In this document: piece after piece, positions 1,572-58,341 of the stretch
How positions within the stretch are numbered: the stretch's first letter is position 1
Layout of the letters: the number at the start of each line of letters is the position of its first letter
Source: a virus
Virus record (IMG/VR): IMGVR_UViG_3300032294_001352
Span: 1 to 64,000 of that record
DNA length: 64,000 nt
Reading direction: 5' to 3' (one strand)
Notes under the pieces: generated by a model
Database searches by the model: none
What the model was told of the DNA's origin: nothing
Seen by the model: the letters and a program-made list of their open reading frames with translations, nothing else
Made by a program: the position numbers and the translations under genes

Positions 1572-1600
1572 AGTATAGTACTGATTAAAAATCTTTGCAA
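1572..1600 (-). promoter_or_regulatory. Sigma70-type promoter for the thyX-side operon
   Basis: On the minus strand TTGCAA (1595-1600) and TATACT (1572-1577) are separated by 17 bases. The -35 hexamer is palindromic and is also the -35 of the divergent promoter at 1595-1622. Confidence 0.7.
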
Positions 1601-1622
1601 TTTGTATAATTAGTAGTATACT
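1595..1622 (+). promoter_or_regulatory. Sigma70-type promoter, divergent, sharing its -35
   Basis: TTGCAA (1595-1600), 16-base AT-rich spacer, TATACT (1617-1622). The next start codon is at 1657 with AAAGGG just upstream. Because TTGCAA is self-complementary, the same six bases serve both directions. Confidence 0.7.
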
Positions 1623-1656
1623 CATATTGTCAGTATTGATAATGAAAGGGTGTGTC

Positions 1657-2016
1657 ATGACAGTCAAAGGAAGCCGTCGAAGTGCCGCAGAAACACCAGT
1701 CAAGCCGGTAGAACCAGTGCAAGAAGTGGTGGTGCAAGAAGCCGTAGTAGCACCAGTGCAGGAAGTGGTGACTAAGGCCATTCAAGCACAAGACTGGATT
1801 ATCTCATATCCGCTCAATGACTTGTATGCAGTGGGAATCACGCTGCCTAACGCCAACTTTGAGTCACAGGTGGTCTTGTTTGATCGCAACGGTGGCCAGT
1901 TGCCGCTTGCAACAATGGCAACTAGCAATCTCACGGAAACTGACATCCTGCGTGGGAGCAAACGATTGGTGTCAGCCATCCTGAACAATCTGGCACGATC
2001 CACCACGCTCATCTAG
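1657..2016 (+). CDS. Hypothetical protein, 119 aa, with Pro/Val/Glu repeat linker
   Basis: Not recognised. Starts MTVKGSRRSAAE, a basic N-terminus, followed by a repeated linker of PVEPVQEVVVQEAV type (residues about 12-38) and then a compact domain (DWIISYPLNDLYAVGI ... LVSAILNNLARS). The ATG at 1657 is chosen for its AAAGGG site. It is a single-gene unit between its own promoter and a strong terminator at 2045. Confidence 0.75.
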   Translation: MTVKGSRRSAAETPVKPVEPVQEVVVQEAVVAPVQEVVTKAIQAQDWIISYPLNDLYAVGITLPNANFESQVVLFDRNGGQLPLATMATSNLTETDILRGSKRLVSAILNNLARSTTLI

Positions 2017-9018: not shown

Positions 9019-9048
9019 TTGACAAAGTATATCAATTTGTGATACAAT
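9019..9048 (+). promoter_or_regulatory. Sigma70-type promoter (plus)
   Basis: TTGACA (9019-9024), 18-base spacer, TACAAT (9043-9048). Drives the operon starting at 9083. The two divergent -35 boxes are only seven bases apart. This one lacks the AGGTTGA leader. Confidence 0.82.
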
Positions 9049-50793: not shown

Positions 50794-51948
50794 ATGAGTT
50801 TTGCGATTGACATCCGACAGTGGAAGACGGTAGAAGCCTTTGAGGCGCATCTGAATGCACACGATCCTGCTATCTGTGATTGGGTGCAAGGCATCGTGAT
50901 TCATCATACGTGGCGACCACTGCCCAGTCAGTGGCGTGGCCGATCGTCGATTGAGGGAATGAAAGCGTACTATGAGCGGCAGTCACCACCGTGGACTGCT
51001 GGACCACACTTGTTCATTGTGACTGGCAGCCCTAATCCGTCTGATGACGGTATCTGGCAGATGACTCCGCTCAACATGGTGGGTGTACACGCTACGGTGT
51101 GTAATCCAACAACGTGGGGCATTGAAGTGGTGGGTGACTATGATGATGAACCGTGGACATTTTCTACCAAGCAGTTGGCGGTTGGTGCTGCTGCGGCATT
51201 GGCCAAGTGGCGCGGAATCATCATCTCACCTCAGACGGTAAAAGGCCATCGGGATTGTAAGAGCAGCAAGTCATGTCCAGGCAATGCCATCAACATGCAG
51301 CAGGTGCGTGACTGGATTAACGCAGAGATCAATGGCACACCAGCGCGTGAACCAATCACGGCTGACAGTCAGATCCTTGCGGCACCACGATGCAGCATGG
51401 AAACTGCGTTGGATTACATCATGAACCGGAATCCACGGCCTGCGTACACGCTGAGTGATTTCTCTATTCATATCCTGCCTGCATACTGGCAGTTAGGCAA
51501 ACTGACTGGTGTTGATCCGTGTATTGCCATTGCCCAAGCAATCCATGAAACGGCCAACTTTAGCAGTTGGTGGTCGTTGCGCCCACGACGCAATCCTGCT
51601 GGGATCGGGGTGACAGGCCAATCTAGCCGAACCGCGCCACATCCTGAGGAAGTCAACAAGTGGGCATATGACAAAGACGTGAACCTGTGGAAGTTCGGTT
51701 TATCGTTCCCATCATGGCAGGTGAGTGCATTGGCACACATGGGCCGATTATGTGCATACGCAACCAAGCCTGCTGAACGCTCACCAGAGCAACAGAAGAT
51801 TGTAGAACAAGCATTGATGATGCGATCGCTTCCATTGGCCTTACAGGGAAGCGCGCCGGTGCTCTTTGGCCTTAATGGGAAGTGGGCTTATCCTGGCACC
51901 ACGTATGCCCAACGGATTGCTGCCATAGCCACAGAGATGGCATTCTAG
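50794..51948 (+). CDS. Endolysin: amidase plus glucosaminidase-like domain, 384 aa
   Basis: Degrades the host wall at lysis. N-terminal Amidase_2 domain (about 25-165) with zinc ligands in GIVIHHTWR (His34/35), GVHATV (near 97) and the Cys of SKSCPG, cutting the MurNAc-L-Ala bond. C-terminal domain (about 200-384) with AQAIHETANFSSWWS, RNPAGIGVTG and YAQRIAAIA looks like an endo-beta-N-acetylglucosaminidase. No signal peptide, so it needs a holin or other export; none is evident next to it. Confidence 0.88.
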   Translation: MSFAIDIRQWKTVEAFEAHLNAHDPAICDWVQGIVIHHTWRPLPSQWRGRSSIEGMKAYYERQSPPWTAGPHLFIVTGSPNPSDDGIWQMTPLNMVGVHATVCNPTTWGIEVVGDYDDEPWTFSTKQLAVGAAAALAKWRGIIISPQTVKGHRDCKSSKSCPGNAINMQQVRDWINAEINGTPAREPITADSQILAAPRCSMETALDYIMNRNPRPAYTLSDFSIHILPAYWQLGKLTGVDPCIAIAQAIHETANFSSWWSLRPRRNPAGIGVTGQSSRTAPHPEEVNKWAYDKDVNLWKFGLSFPSWQVSALAHMGRLCAYATKPAERSPEQQKIVEQALMMRSLPLALQGSAPVLFGLNGKWAYPGTTYAQRIAAIATEMAF

Positions 51949-52033: not shown

Positions 52034-52062
52034 TTGACAAACTATACATTTTGTCTTACAAT
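52034..52062 (+). promoter_or_regulatory. Promoter of the RNA locus
   Basis: TTGACA (52034-52039), 17-base spacer, TACAAT (52057-52062). The predicted start is about 52069, just before the folded RNA. No AGGTTGA leader, in keeping with a non-coding transcript. Region 51949-52033 holds only a weak hairpin (CCAATTT/AAATTGG). Confidence 0.85.
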
Positions 52063-52082
52063 GACTGACATGAGGGAATGGC

Positions 52083-52361
52083 GTGTGGGGAGAGAAAAAA
52101 CCGTGACTGACACTCACGAGTACCTCACACTTAATGGTGAGAGATGGTAGTGGTTGCCATCCAGATGTGTTGACTCGCAATCAACATGTTGACACCAGCC
52201 GTAGGTGGTGCGACCACCTCAGCAGACCTACAAGCATTATCGGACTCCGTGCGCTGGTAATGTGGAAGGCGGGCACCTCGAAGAAAGAAAGCGTCGCACA
52301 GGAACTGGTACTCGGTATTACACTGAGTAGGTGGGCAACCTGCCAAATAGCCCACCGTTAT
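52083..52361 (+). ncRNA. Unclassified structured RNA upstream of the tmRNA
   Basis: About 280 bases with no gene but many pairings: GTGTGGGG with CCTCACAC around a GTGA/TCAC hairpin; GATGG/CCATC with a nine-base loop; a nine-pair hairpin with seven-base loop CTCGCAA; a three-way junction closed by ACCAGC/GCTGGT with arms GTAGG/CCTAC, GGTGG/CCACC and CGG/CCG; ACTCGGT/ACTGAGT; GGTGGGC/GCCCACC. It begins at a strong promoter and reads into the tmRNA. It is not a tRNA (no cloverleaf) and I could not match it to a known class. Confidence 0.65.
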
Positions 52362-52494
52362 GGGGATGCTCTGGTATTGACAGGGTGATTTGGCAATCAG
52401 TAGCGATAACTGCCCACGGGAAGACGCGAACGCTGCCTGCCTTTAATGGTGATAATCATTCTGGACTGCGGTTCGACTCCGCACATCTCCACCA
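52362..52494 (+). ncRNA. ssrA: Very short tmRNA (133 nt)
   Basis: tmRNA rescues stalled ribosomes. Acceptor stem GGGGATG (52362-52368) pairs with CATCTCC (52484-52490), with a G-U at the third pair, the alanine identity signal; A and CCA follow. T-arm TGCGG/CCGCA with loop TTCGACT; the D-region CTCTGGTATTGACAGGG matches the tmRNA consensus; helix P2 is GGGTGATT with AATCATTC (52454-52461). The possible tag frame ends at TAA (52444) with further in-frame stops at 52450 and 52453; it reads ...EDANAACL, not the usual LAA end. Most tmRNAs are 300-400 nt with four pseudoknots, which are absent here. Confidence 0.85.
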
Positions 52495-52496
52495 AT

Positions 52497-52658
52497 GCTC
52501 AGGTTTCGTTTGGGAAGTTTGACAGGGAGCGCAATCCTAGGATGTTATCGCCGATCCGGCCAATCGGATAGTGGAATCCCGACGGGGATAGAGTGAGAAA
52601 TCATCCGCTCACCAAATTGCGCCCACATACGCAGGTTCAATTCCTGCCCTGAGCACCA
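52497..52658 (+). ncRNA. Second tmRNA-like RNA (162 nt), non-alanine acceptor
   Basis: Starts two bases after the CCA of the tmRNA. Acceptor GCTCAGG (52497-52503) pairs perfectly with CCTGAGC (52648-52654), then A and CCA. T-arm GCAGG/CCTGC with loop TTCAATT. GTTTGACAGGG matches the D-region of the first RNA, and helix GGG(a)GCGCAAT (52525-52535) pairs with ATTGCGCCC (52616-52624) like P2. Inside are hairpins ATCCG/CGGAT, ATCCC/GGGAT and GTGAG/CTCAC. The third acceptor pair is T-A, so alanine charging is not expected. No tag frame is obvious. Confidence 0.72.
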
Positions 52659-52694: not shown

Positions 52695-53009
52695 ATGAAC
52701 AAGCACAAGTCACTGAATGAGATGATGGCTGAGAAAAACATCAAGATGGTCGTGAATAATTTCATGGTTGGTGATTTATCCGTGCGCGTGGTGGCCAACA
52801 ACATGGGCCATGACTTTGAGCGGATGGCGAACAACCAGTGCAACATGGCCATCTACATCATCCGTGAGCGTGATTGGGATGAGGAGCAAATCATCATGCT
52901 TGGTGGTGAGTCACTGGTGATGGATATTGAAGACCATGACCAAGTGCTGGTCCATGCAAAACTGTTGCTTAGCCGTCTGATGTTGTCGCTGCTTGATGCA
53001 ATACAGTAG
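52695..53009 (+). CDS. Hypothetical protein, 104 aa
   Basis: Not recognised. Starts MNKHKSLNEMMAEKNIKMV; N-terminal helices, a strand pair (MAIYIIRERDWDEEQIIML) and a hydrophobic C-terminal helix (AKLLLSRLMLSLLDAI). The AGTAAGGAGC site matches cassette leaders, but the gene follows the RNA locus. It may be on the same transcript as the tmRNA. Confidence 0.72.
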   Translation: MNKHKSLNEMMAEKNIKMVVNNFMVGDLSVRVVANNMGHDFERMANNQCNMAIYIIRERDWDEEQIIMLGGESLVMDIEDHDQVLVHAKLLLSRLMLSLLDAIQ

Positions 53010-56439: not shown

Positions 56440-57155
56440 CAATGGTTGACGTGCAATGCTGTGATGGGAGCGGATGGTACAAAAAGGAAGTTCCGTTTGG
56501 CCATCCTGACTGGGGAAAGTTGTTTCGGTGTGAGTGCGGCAAGGCTGGCGATCCGGAAGCGCGGATGAATGCGTTGCATGATGCACTCAAATCCTATGGC
56601 GAGTGTCGGTTTGACAACTGGTTTACCGATCGACCACTAGAACCAAACACATGGGGTGGCGTGACGTACAAGACGGAAGATCAGTACAAGGCCTTACGGA
56701 TTGCTACCAAGCGCGCCAAAGCCTATGCTGACGATCCTGAGGGAATGCTCTTTATCTTTGGCAGTTTCGGTGCTGGTAAGACGCACTTGGCTGCAGCCAT
56801 AGGCTACGCATGTGCAGAGCGGAATCTGCGTGTGCAGTATCACAACATCACTAATCTCGTAAGCAAACTGCGGCAAGCAGCAGGTGACTTTGATGTGGAG
56901 TCAATCATGCAACCACTGTTGACTGCTGACGTGCTGATCTTGGATGACATCGGTGCTGAGGAATCAATGTCAGCCTTTATCCAGTCACAAATCTATCGCT
57001 TGATTGATGAGCGATTGCATTTGGCCACCGTTATCACGTCAAATCTGGATGTGCAGTCACTCACGGACAAGATCGGTGGGCGCACGCAATCTCGATTACA
57101 AATGGCCCAGACCATCTGGTTGCCAGTATCTGATTACCGGAAGCAGAAGAAGTAG
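56436..57155 (+). CDS. DnaC/DnaI-like helicase loader ATPase, 239 aa
   Basis: AAA+ ATPase that loads replicative helicase. Walker A GSFGAGKTH (about 109-117), Walker B VLILDDIGAE (about 166-175), sensor ITSNLD near 213. The N-terminus has CCDGSGW and RCECGK, a zinc-binding type found in DnaC-like proteins. A helicase gene is not seen in this window, so host DnaB or an outside gene would be the partner. ATGA overlap with the gene upstream. Confidence 0.88.
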   Translation: MTMVDVQCCDGSGWYKKEVPFGHPDWGKLFRCECGKAGDPEARMNALHDALKSYGECRFDNWFTDRPLEPNTWGGVTYKTEDQYKALRIATKRAKAYADDPEGMLFIFGSFGAGKTHLAAAIGYACAERNLRVQYHNITNLVSKLRQAAGDFDVESIMQPLLTADVLILDDIGAEESMSAFIQSQIYRLIDERLHLATVITSNLDVQSLTDKIGGRTQSRLQMAQTIWLPVSDYRKQKK

Positions 57156-57156
57156 C

Positions 57157-58341
57157 ATGGACATTCAACGCAAAGCCAAAATTGCGGCACAACAGACGTT
57201 GTTTGATGTGCAACCAAACTGGAAAGACTTCTGGTGGGATATGCCTGCCTTTGAGCAGCAGGATGCAAGAGCAACCAAGACCATCAGTGTTCACTTCCTG
57301 ACCATGGATGACTTCTATGAGTTTTGTGCGGCACTTGATGTGAAGTTGACTCCGAAGTCACTCTCACTCTGGTACCCACCACAGCAACGGATGAATGGTG
57401 AGTATCTGTACACTGGACCACAGGTAGATGCACGCTATCCGGTGTGCATTCCATCCAAGGGGCGCTGGGATAACCACAAGACTGCGGCAGCACTTGATCG
57501 GATGGGTGTGTCATACCGGTTCTTTGTAGAAGACACAGAGGCTGATGCGTACATCAACGCACTTGGGGCTGAGCGTGTGGTGGTCATGCCATTCCATGAT
57601 CTTGGCCAAGGCAGCATTCCGGCCAGAAACTTTATCTGGGAATGGGCAGTCACGCATGGATATAGGCGGCATTGGGTGATGGATGACAACATCGTCAACT
57701 TCAAGCGGATCACTAACAATCGACGAGTGAGAGTTCGCACTGGCATGTTTTTCCGTGCCATTGAGGATTTCGTGGATCGCTATGACAACATTGCGTTGGC
57801 TGGTCCGCACCATGACGGTTTCGTCAAAGATCGCTATCCTCACAAGCCACCAGTCATCTTTAATCGCCGCATCTACTCATGCATCCTGATAGACTCCACA
57901 CTTCCATACCGGTGGCGTGGAAAGTACAACGAGGATACCGATTTGAGTCTGCGTGTGCTAAAAGATGGCTACTGCACAGCCTTGTTTGCTGCGCTCACCA
58001 TGCACAAGCCCACGACTGCTGGCGGCAAGGGGAAACCGATGAAAGGGGGAAACACCGATACCGTTTATAACACGACTGATTACCGATTGGCCTTTGCTCA
58101 GTCACTGAAAGAGCAACACCCTGACGTGGTGGAAGTGACGTGGAAGTTTAATCGCTGGCACCACCATGTGGATTACACACCGTTCAAGAACAACCAGCCT
58201 ATACTCAGAGCGGACATCACGCCAAAGCCTGGCACCAATGAGTATGAGATGCGTTTAGTCCGTGCGGCAAGTGGTGACATTGACGTGGATCTTGATGACG
58301 ATATTGATACTGACATGATAGAAGATGAGGATGACGTATGA
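57157..58341 (+). CDS. TET-associated glycosyltransferase-like protein, 394 aa
   Basis: Central domain (about 90-330): YPVCIPSKGRWDN, YRFFVEDTEAD, IPARNFIWEWA and WVMDDNIVNFKR (a DD pair suited to sugar-nucleotide binding), then YNEDTDLSLRVLKDG. This matches glycosyltransferases of the TAGT type, which in phages attach sugars to modified bases. A short N-terminal part (DFWWDMPAFEQQD ... SLWYPP) is common in phage ParB-neighbour proteins. The end is acidic. No TET/JBP oxidase is in the window, so the acceptor is unclear. The ATG at 57157 follows AGAAGAAG. Confidence 0.7.
   Translation: MDIQRKAKIAAQQTLFDVQPNWKDFWWDMPAFEQQDARATKTISVHFLTMDDFYEFCAALDVKLTPKSLSLWYPPQQRMNGEYLYTGPQVDARYPVCIPSKGRWDNHKTAAALDRMGVSYRFFVEDTEADAYINALGAERVVVMPFHDLGQGSIPARNFIWEWAVTHGYRRHWVMDDNIVNFKRITNNRRVRVRTGMFFRAIEDFVDRYDNIALAGPHHDGFVKDRYPHKPPVIFNRRIYSCILIDSTLPYRWRGKYNEDTDLSLRVLKDGYCTALFAALTMHKPTTAGGKGKPMKGGNTDTVYNTTDYRLAFAQSLKEQHPDVVEVTWKFNRWHHHVDYTPFKNNQPILRADITPKPGTNEYEMRLVRAASGDIDVDLDDDIDTDMIEDEDDV

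Follow-up and report, generated by a model that had tools for sequence, protein, structure and literature searches.

A tagless mini-tmRNA and a tRNA-like RNA in tandem in a phage genome

The stretch of viral DNA analysed here, called the window, comprises positions 1 to 64,000 of IMG/VR record IMGVR_UViG_3300032294_001352, a virus record of 87,876 bases; 84 kb of this virus were read. Downstream of an amidase/glucosaminidase lysin gene (50794-51948) lies a non-coding stretch that holds two short RNA genes in tandem on the plus strand: RNA1 (52362..52494; 133 nucleotides, nt), a tagless miniature transfer-messenger RNA (mini-tmRNA), and RNA2 (52497..52658; 162 nt), a tRNA-like RNA with an enlarged interior. 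Bacteria rely on tmRNA to release stalled ribosomes. Both the boundaries and the 2-base spacing between them are those that a first-pass annotation, made from the letters of the window, had proposed. A descriptor of a 7-bp acceptor, a 5-bp T-arm and a normal T-loop finds exactly RNA1 and RNA2 on both strands of the 64 kb and has no match in 30 randomised windows. A small gene begins at 52695, downstream of RNA2.

Structure of the two RNAs

RNA1 aligns end to end with the Rfam tmRNA model RF00023 at 68.0 bits against a gathering score of 47 (E 2.3e-24); the alignment skips the greater part of the model's middle. ARAGORN does not call RNA1. In agreement with the first-pass annotation, which had described a tmRNA with an alanine-type acceptor, the 5' strand GGGGATG (52362..52368) and the 3' strand CATCTCC, followed by A73 and an encoded CCA (52484..52494), bring G3 (52364) opposite T at 52488, i.e., the G3-U70 pair. 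Next to the acceptor lies the T-arm TGCGG-TTCGACT-CCGCA (52467..52483). The interior consists of a P2 helix (52382..52390, pairing with 52454-52462), a second helix corresponding to P3 (52392..52395 with 52434-52437), an apical hairpin (52403..52427) in which a 3-bp stem (52403-52405/52425-52427) closes a 19-nt loop (52406-52424; ATAACTGCCCACGGGAAGA), and a small hairpin with stem TGCC/GGTG and loop TTTAAT (52438..52451).

Since RNA1 alone folds no better than its shuffles (z -0.5), this structure rests on homology and covariation. Six sequences were aligned for this purpose, namely those of the window and of L131, L133, L135, L140 and L244 (L-numbers are labels of loci fetched for comparison), and all share the acceptor, the T-arm, a 9-pair P2, the second stem, a 3-pair apical stem with its 19-nt loop, and the small hairpin. 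The structure was hand-drawn on the very alignment used for scoring, which favours it; on these terms, 97.4% of the 192 cells are paired and 19 of 32 pairs show changes on both sides, against 10.4 +- 1.9 in shuffles, none of 500 of which equals the observed count. When partners are slid, pairing falls to 42-50%, and RNAalifold, unprompted, returns the same helices. Changes on both sides affect five of nine pairs in P2, all four in the second helix and two of three in the apical stem, which is present in 6/6 sequences, and the 19-nt loop contains ATAACTGCC and AGA without variation in this subgroup alignment. Thus, the acceptor and P2 pairings, on whose covariation the first-pass annotation had staked its reading, do covary among homologues. 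The G3-U70 pair and CCA are found in RNA1 and in all five aligned relatives; as most searches required a G3-U70 acceptor, this constancy is built in for most of them. The independent case is L244, found through the inner loop alone, whose acceptor GGGGGCG/CGCCTCC keeps G3-U70 with two neighbouring pairs changed on both sides.

The pseudoknot ring is missing, as had been proposed: only about 80 nt separate the D-region from the T-arm, and nested covarying helices occupy them. Likewise, no tag reading frame with a resume codon and a stop is conserved among the relatives of RNA1. Comparison thus shows that RNA1 keeps the tRNA-like domain (TLD; G3-U70 acceptor, T-arm, CCA and tmRNA D-region) and has a P2, and that in place of the tag and pseudoknots it has a small branched domain with the conserved 19-nt loop at its end.

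RNA2 folds better than most of its shuffles (z -2.4; 4 of 200 are as good), and its evidence of conservation comes from L244, a 72.8-kb record. There, one base downstream of the L244 RNA1, stands an RNA (L244:6725-6886) that has exactly the length of RNA2, 162 nt, and an interior resembling that of RNA2. The lengths of both RNAs are identical in the two pairs. All 29 modelled RNA2 pairs are standard in both phages and nine are compensatory, as compared with 4.5 in shuffles (1 of 500 reaches nine) and with 34-54% pairing for slid partners; the comparison comprises two sequences, from which the structure was also drawn. RNA2 is a structured RNA with clear covariation. Its acceptor (GCTCAGG at 52497..52503, CCTGAGC at 52648-52654) forms seven Watson-Crick pairs without G-U, three of them compensatory, and is followed by a short D-arm-like element seen in folds (TTTC-GTTTGG-GAAG, 52504..52517). 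Further inward come a long helix (GCGCAAT at 52529..52535, partner 52616-52622; three compensatory pairs) and a 5-pair hairpin (52551..52567) with the 7-nt loop CCGGCCA (TTGGCCA in L244), all five pairs of which are kept and two are compensatory. Two more hairpins complete the interior: ATCCC-GACG-GGGAT (52576..52589), whose sequence is conserved without variation in L244, and GTGAG...CTCAC (52593..52612), which was taken from the fold and is out of register in L244. The 3' part (52631..52658) holds the T-arm GCAGG-TTCAATT-CCTGC (52631-52647), the acceptor 3' strand, A73 and an encoded CCA. The perfect acceptor, T-arm and CCA attributed to RNA2 by the first-pass annotation are therefore all present.

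The proposed kinship of RNA2 with tmRNA fared less well. Rfam gives it neither a tRNA (RF00005) nor a tmRNA hit of its own, its interior is different, and the supposed tmRNA-type D-region GACAGGG is not conserved: the L244 homologue lacks GAC, and what both share is the short D-arm-like GTTTGG or GTTGG. A place for RNA2 among the tmRNAs is accordingly not supported, and the suggestion that it is a diverged copy of RNA1 fails on the same missing motif and on interiors that do not align. Compared with a tRNA, RNA2 has the acceptor, short D-arm, T-arm and CCA, whereas no anticodon arm is joined as in a cloverleaf, the arm with the 7-nt loop lying inside the branched domain. We regard RNA2 as a tRNA-like RNA in its own right, of non-alanine type and probably transcribed together with RNA1. 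A permuted tmRNA spanning both RNAs was considered and rejected (RF04321 scores 25 bits across the boundary, below its cut-off, and only in the shared T-arm region), as was a kissing contact of an RNA1 loop with an RNA2 loop, which by eye would amount to at most three pairs.

Other tRNA-like RNAs of unusual size were seen in the fetched loci. RNAs of about 120-155 nt adjoin mini-tmRNAs on the minus strands of L125 (11166-11322 and 10867-11018) and L128 (4580-4716); they lie directly behind the mini-tmRNAs, are not called as tRNA by ARAGORN and have no recognisable homology to RNA2. The phage of L145 has an oversized tRNA-like element with a T-arm and a long helix (L267, 11302-11441, minus strand), and L283 a 133-nt leucine-tRNA-like gene with an extra inner segment (1587-1719, minus strand).

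Relatives in other phages

Relatives of RNA1 were gathered by pattern-based sampling, and the E-values of the home-made models used (R1 and R2) are rough. Seven viral stretches, each above the tmRNA cut-off, matched a gapped pattern in which 60-90 bases separate a tmRNA 5' end from a T-arm. A looser version gave 28 matches, and a pattern for longer RNAs gave further matches intermixed with pieces of full tmRNAs. By our count, mini-tmRNA-like RNAs in phage contigs amount to about 15 sequence types of 107-143 nt, nearly all of which ARAGORN misses. Several stand within phage tRNA clusters (L138, L139, L143, L144, L148 and L156), and a loop comparable to that of RNA1, with (A)AAGGCNCA, is discernible by eye in other mini-tmRNA subgroups. 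Among 85 bacterial pattern matches, most proved by eye to be tRNAs that happen to follow a GGGG, or else 3' portions of tmRNAs, ordinary or permuted, and the Chloroflexi matches turned out to be inner parts of full tmRNAs. Three assemblies called Syntrophomonadaceae (L157), Berkelbacteria (L176) and Cloacimonadota (L228) have a mini-tmRNA plus a full tmRNA elsewhere; these minis are perhaps on phage contigs. No tmRNA match came from relatives located by way of the phrog_13692 and lysin genes, and named phages gave no match to the minis at the DNA level.

The phages of L131, L133/L145, L135 and L244 form a related group, with 22 to 73 shared proteins per pair, whereas the phage of L140 and that of the window are unrelated to this group and share 1-8 proteins with the rest, where any; the window phage and the L244 phage have about four proteins in common, at about 40% identity. 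The mini-tmRNA, and in L244 the pair, have thus been kept or exchanged between phages that share little else, and this recurrence speaks for a function. No SmpB gene was found in 13 phage records, in a search whose control was positive in 10 of 14 genomes.

In two of the fetched loci a protein gene reads into the mini-tmRNA downstream of it: in L270 (1698-1910) its stop lies inside the RNA, and reading of the sequence upstream of 3424 in L129 points to the same arrangement. Excision of the RNA would, from the sequence, leave a non-stop mRNA in both.

Known systems and possible roles

The closest precedent is mycobacteriophage DS6A, which encodes a tagless tmRNA reduced to the TLD; a molecule similar to it is a strong tmRNA inhibitor in E. 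coli, an effect that may come from titration of SmpB (PMC4131195, PMC11915505). Both DS6A and the window have a phage-borne tmRNA TLD without a tag, but RNA1 differs from the DS6A molecule, by description little more than a TLD, in its P2, branched inner domain, conserved loop and partner RNA. One-piece bacterial tmRNA (RF00023) shares with RNA1 the G3-U70 acceptor, D-region, T-arm, P2 and CCA, but is about 350 nt long, as against 133, and has the tag and pseudoknots that RNA1 lacks. The permuted tmRNAs of phages such as BUCTxx99, S-CRM01 and Melnitz (RF04321) are likewise phage-borne with the same TLD, but are circularly permuted and tag-encoding (PMC9004378). Two such genes were found unannotated, in L082 (OR529408.1, Stenotrophomonas phage BUCTxx99; 1441-1766, predicted tag ANDDVYVVALAA) and in L083 (HQ615693.1, Synechococcus phage S-CRM01; 1440-1749, predicted tag ANNVVKFRRTAVTSLVAAL). 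As in RNA1, the TLD is kept and the tag frame absent in tmRNAs of jakobid and other mitochondria and of Mallomonadaceae plastids; unlike RNA1, these are organelle-borne, and the plastid forms measure about 65 bp. We know of no tandem partner of an organellar tagless tmRNA.

As a pair, RNA1 and RNA2 recall RNA C (139 nt) and RNA D (119 nt) of phage T4, two stable RNAs made in tandem whose function is unknown (PMC9697503), RNA C having a T-arm as well. As relatives these were rejected: neither scores as a tmRNA, model R1 has no hit at rnaC or rnaD, the 25 bits of model R2 at rnaC fall within the range of tRNA hits, and no sequence relation to RNA1 or RNA2 was seen. Phage tRNAs share with RNA2 the acceptor, T-arm, D-arm-like loop and CCA, but not its 162-nt length and branched interior, nor its lack of an Rfam tRNA hit.

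The first-pass annotation had held that tmRNAs this short and a tandem partner of different identity were, to its knowledge, not described. A short tagless tmRNA is already known from a phage in one case and from organelles in several, and tandem RNAs are known from T4, so that the claim about short tmRNAs is not supported; a literature search on tagless, truncated or inhibitory phage tmRNA, which covered few subscription papers, returned only DS6A. To our knowledge, the breadth of the phage family, the conserved inner hairpin and loop, and the RNA2 partner look new. The family suggests that tagless tmRNAs are scattered among phages rather than being an oddity of DS6A alone, and that the viruses carrying them interfere with or reuse the ribosome-rescue system of the host.

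Most likely RNA1, as a tagless mini-tmRNA, engages the SmpB of the host, competes with host tmRNA and blocks or diverts tagging, with RNA2 as a helper or decoy; our confidence in this reading is evenly balanced between belief and doubt. RNA1 would be trimmed by host tRNA enzymes, charged by alanyl-tRNA synthetase, bound by the SmpB of the host and brought into competition with host tmRNA on stalled ribosomes, and in the infected cell peptides would consequently not be marked for proteolysis. As for the conserved loop, it would occupy the site of the resume region or make direct contact with the ribosome. For RNA2 we favour a helper role or one as a decoy of factors that bind tRNA, which is the weakest part of the proposal. 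The first-pass annotation had raised the decoy idea too, for RNA2; it is possible and has an experimental precedent. Several observations weigh against this reading. For a pure SmpB decoy the TLD alone would suffice, yet the inner 19-nt loop is equally conserved, and the inner domain must therefore have a further role. Moreover, model R1 places RNA2 nowhere in the fetched sequence of the other subgroup phages, and a scan with an RNA2 pattern gave no convincing relative except L244, i.e., in one other phage only.

Because titration alone leaves the conserved loop unexplained, untagged rescue is retained as the main rival, possible though on balance unlikely: RNA1 would take over the peptide on its alanine and the loop would supply a stop or admit a release factor, freeing the ribosome without a tag and leaving the phage with free ribosomes and intact proteins. 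The UAR and UAA of AGUAR-YGAUAAC occur in 6/6 relatives (UAR-YGA-UAA, in one frame within the subgroup), the loop ATAACTGC bears a weak likeness to the stretch preceding the resume codon in Rfam's consensus for cyanobacterial and permuted tmRNAs (AUAACUGC), and tagless mitochondrial tmRNAs are conserved along with SmpB (PMC11915505). However, the stops do not keep one frame relative to the loop in other subgroups, one stop position is also constrained by base pairing, and a loop of 19 nt makes a tight fit in the decoding channel. Untagged rescue by a two-RNA phage device seems to us decidedly improbable; in it, RNA1 would supply alanine and, within its loop, a resume-like GCC, while RNA2, with GGC in the 7-nt loop of both phages, would join RNA1 on the ribosome to release peptides without a tag. 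Slightly less doubtful, though still improbable, is that the two RNAs serve as decoys, or as spare substrates, of host factors attacking or modifying tRNA (anticodon nucleases, RNase P, CCA enzyme, EF-Tu), with no link to trans-translation. The acceptor, T-arm and CCA of both RNAs, the anticodon-arm-like 5-bp stem and 7-nt loop of RNA2, the presence of several mini-tmRNAs in phage tRNA clusters and the T4 pair (PMC9697503) are in line with such a role; the G3-U70, GAC D-region and P2 of RNA1 exceed what it needs, and C at position 33 (window) and at position 37 (both phages) is unusual for an anticodon loop.

That RNA1 works as a mini-tmRNA with a short tag is very improbable. The sole tag-like frame in the window RNA1 (...SSDNCPREDANAACL) ends at UAA with more in-frame stops just after, and in the related L126 a tag is called by ARAGORN; nevertheless, the frame meets an early stop in L131 and L140 but continues differently in L133, L135 and L244, pseudoknots and the usual tag ending are absent, and a tag-encoding tmRNA was rejected because frames are not conserved among relatives. 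Hardly credible at all is decay of functionless tmRNA and tRNA gene copies. Phages often carry broken tRNA genes, and the solo fold of RNA1 would fit such an origin, but nearly every helix shows compensatory changes, lengths are equal and the RNAs are conserved across otherwise dissimilar phages.

Whether phages switch off or redirect host tagging and ribosome rescue by means of an RNA becomes a testable question. Conservation of the inner loop leads one to expect a specific contact, and a natural tagless tmRNA could reveal which tmRNA parts are needed to bind a stalled ribosome.

Flanking sequence and further observations

A near-consensus promoter-like element, TTGACA-17-TACAAT (52034..52062, plus strand; a consensus match only), lies about 300 bases upstream of RNA1, and L270 has identical hexamers with the same spacing about 230 bases upstream of its RNA1/RNA2 pair. 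The leader between element and RNA1 (52063..52361, plus strand) contains no credible gene, has a fold z of -0.9 and shows no similarity to the leader in the other pair-carrying phage. Five TTGACA-16/18-TAYAAT elements occur in the 84 kb, at 9019, 10899 and 52034 of the window and at about 6467 and 8180 of L273; the flanks of the element at 52034 and of the first L273 element (about 6467) are alike as well.

The window phage probably modifies its DNA, to judge by the predicted products of two genes, a Mom-like protein (L273, 8518-9186) and a TET-associated glycosyltransferase (window, 57004-58341). In L254-L272, which cover the phages of L131, L133, L135, L140, L145 and L244, CGATCG is strongly avoided (0 found versus 6-13 expected), and three of these phages also avoid GGCC, as if under restriction pressure.
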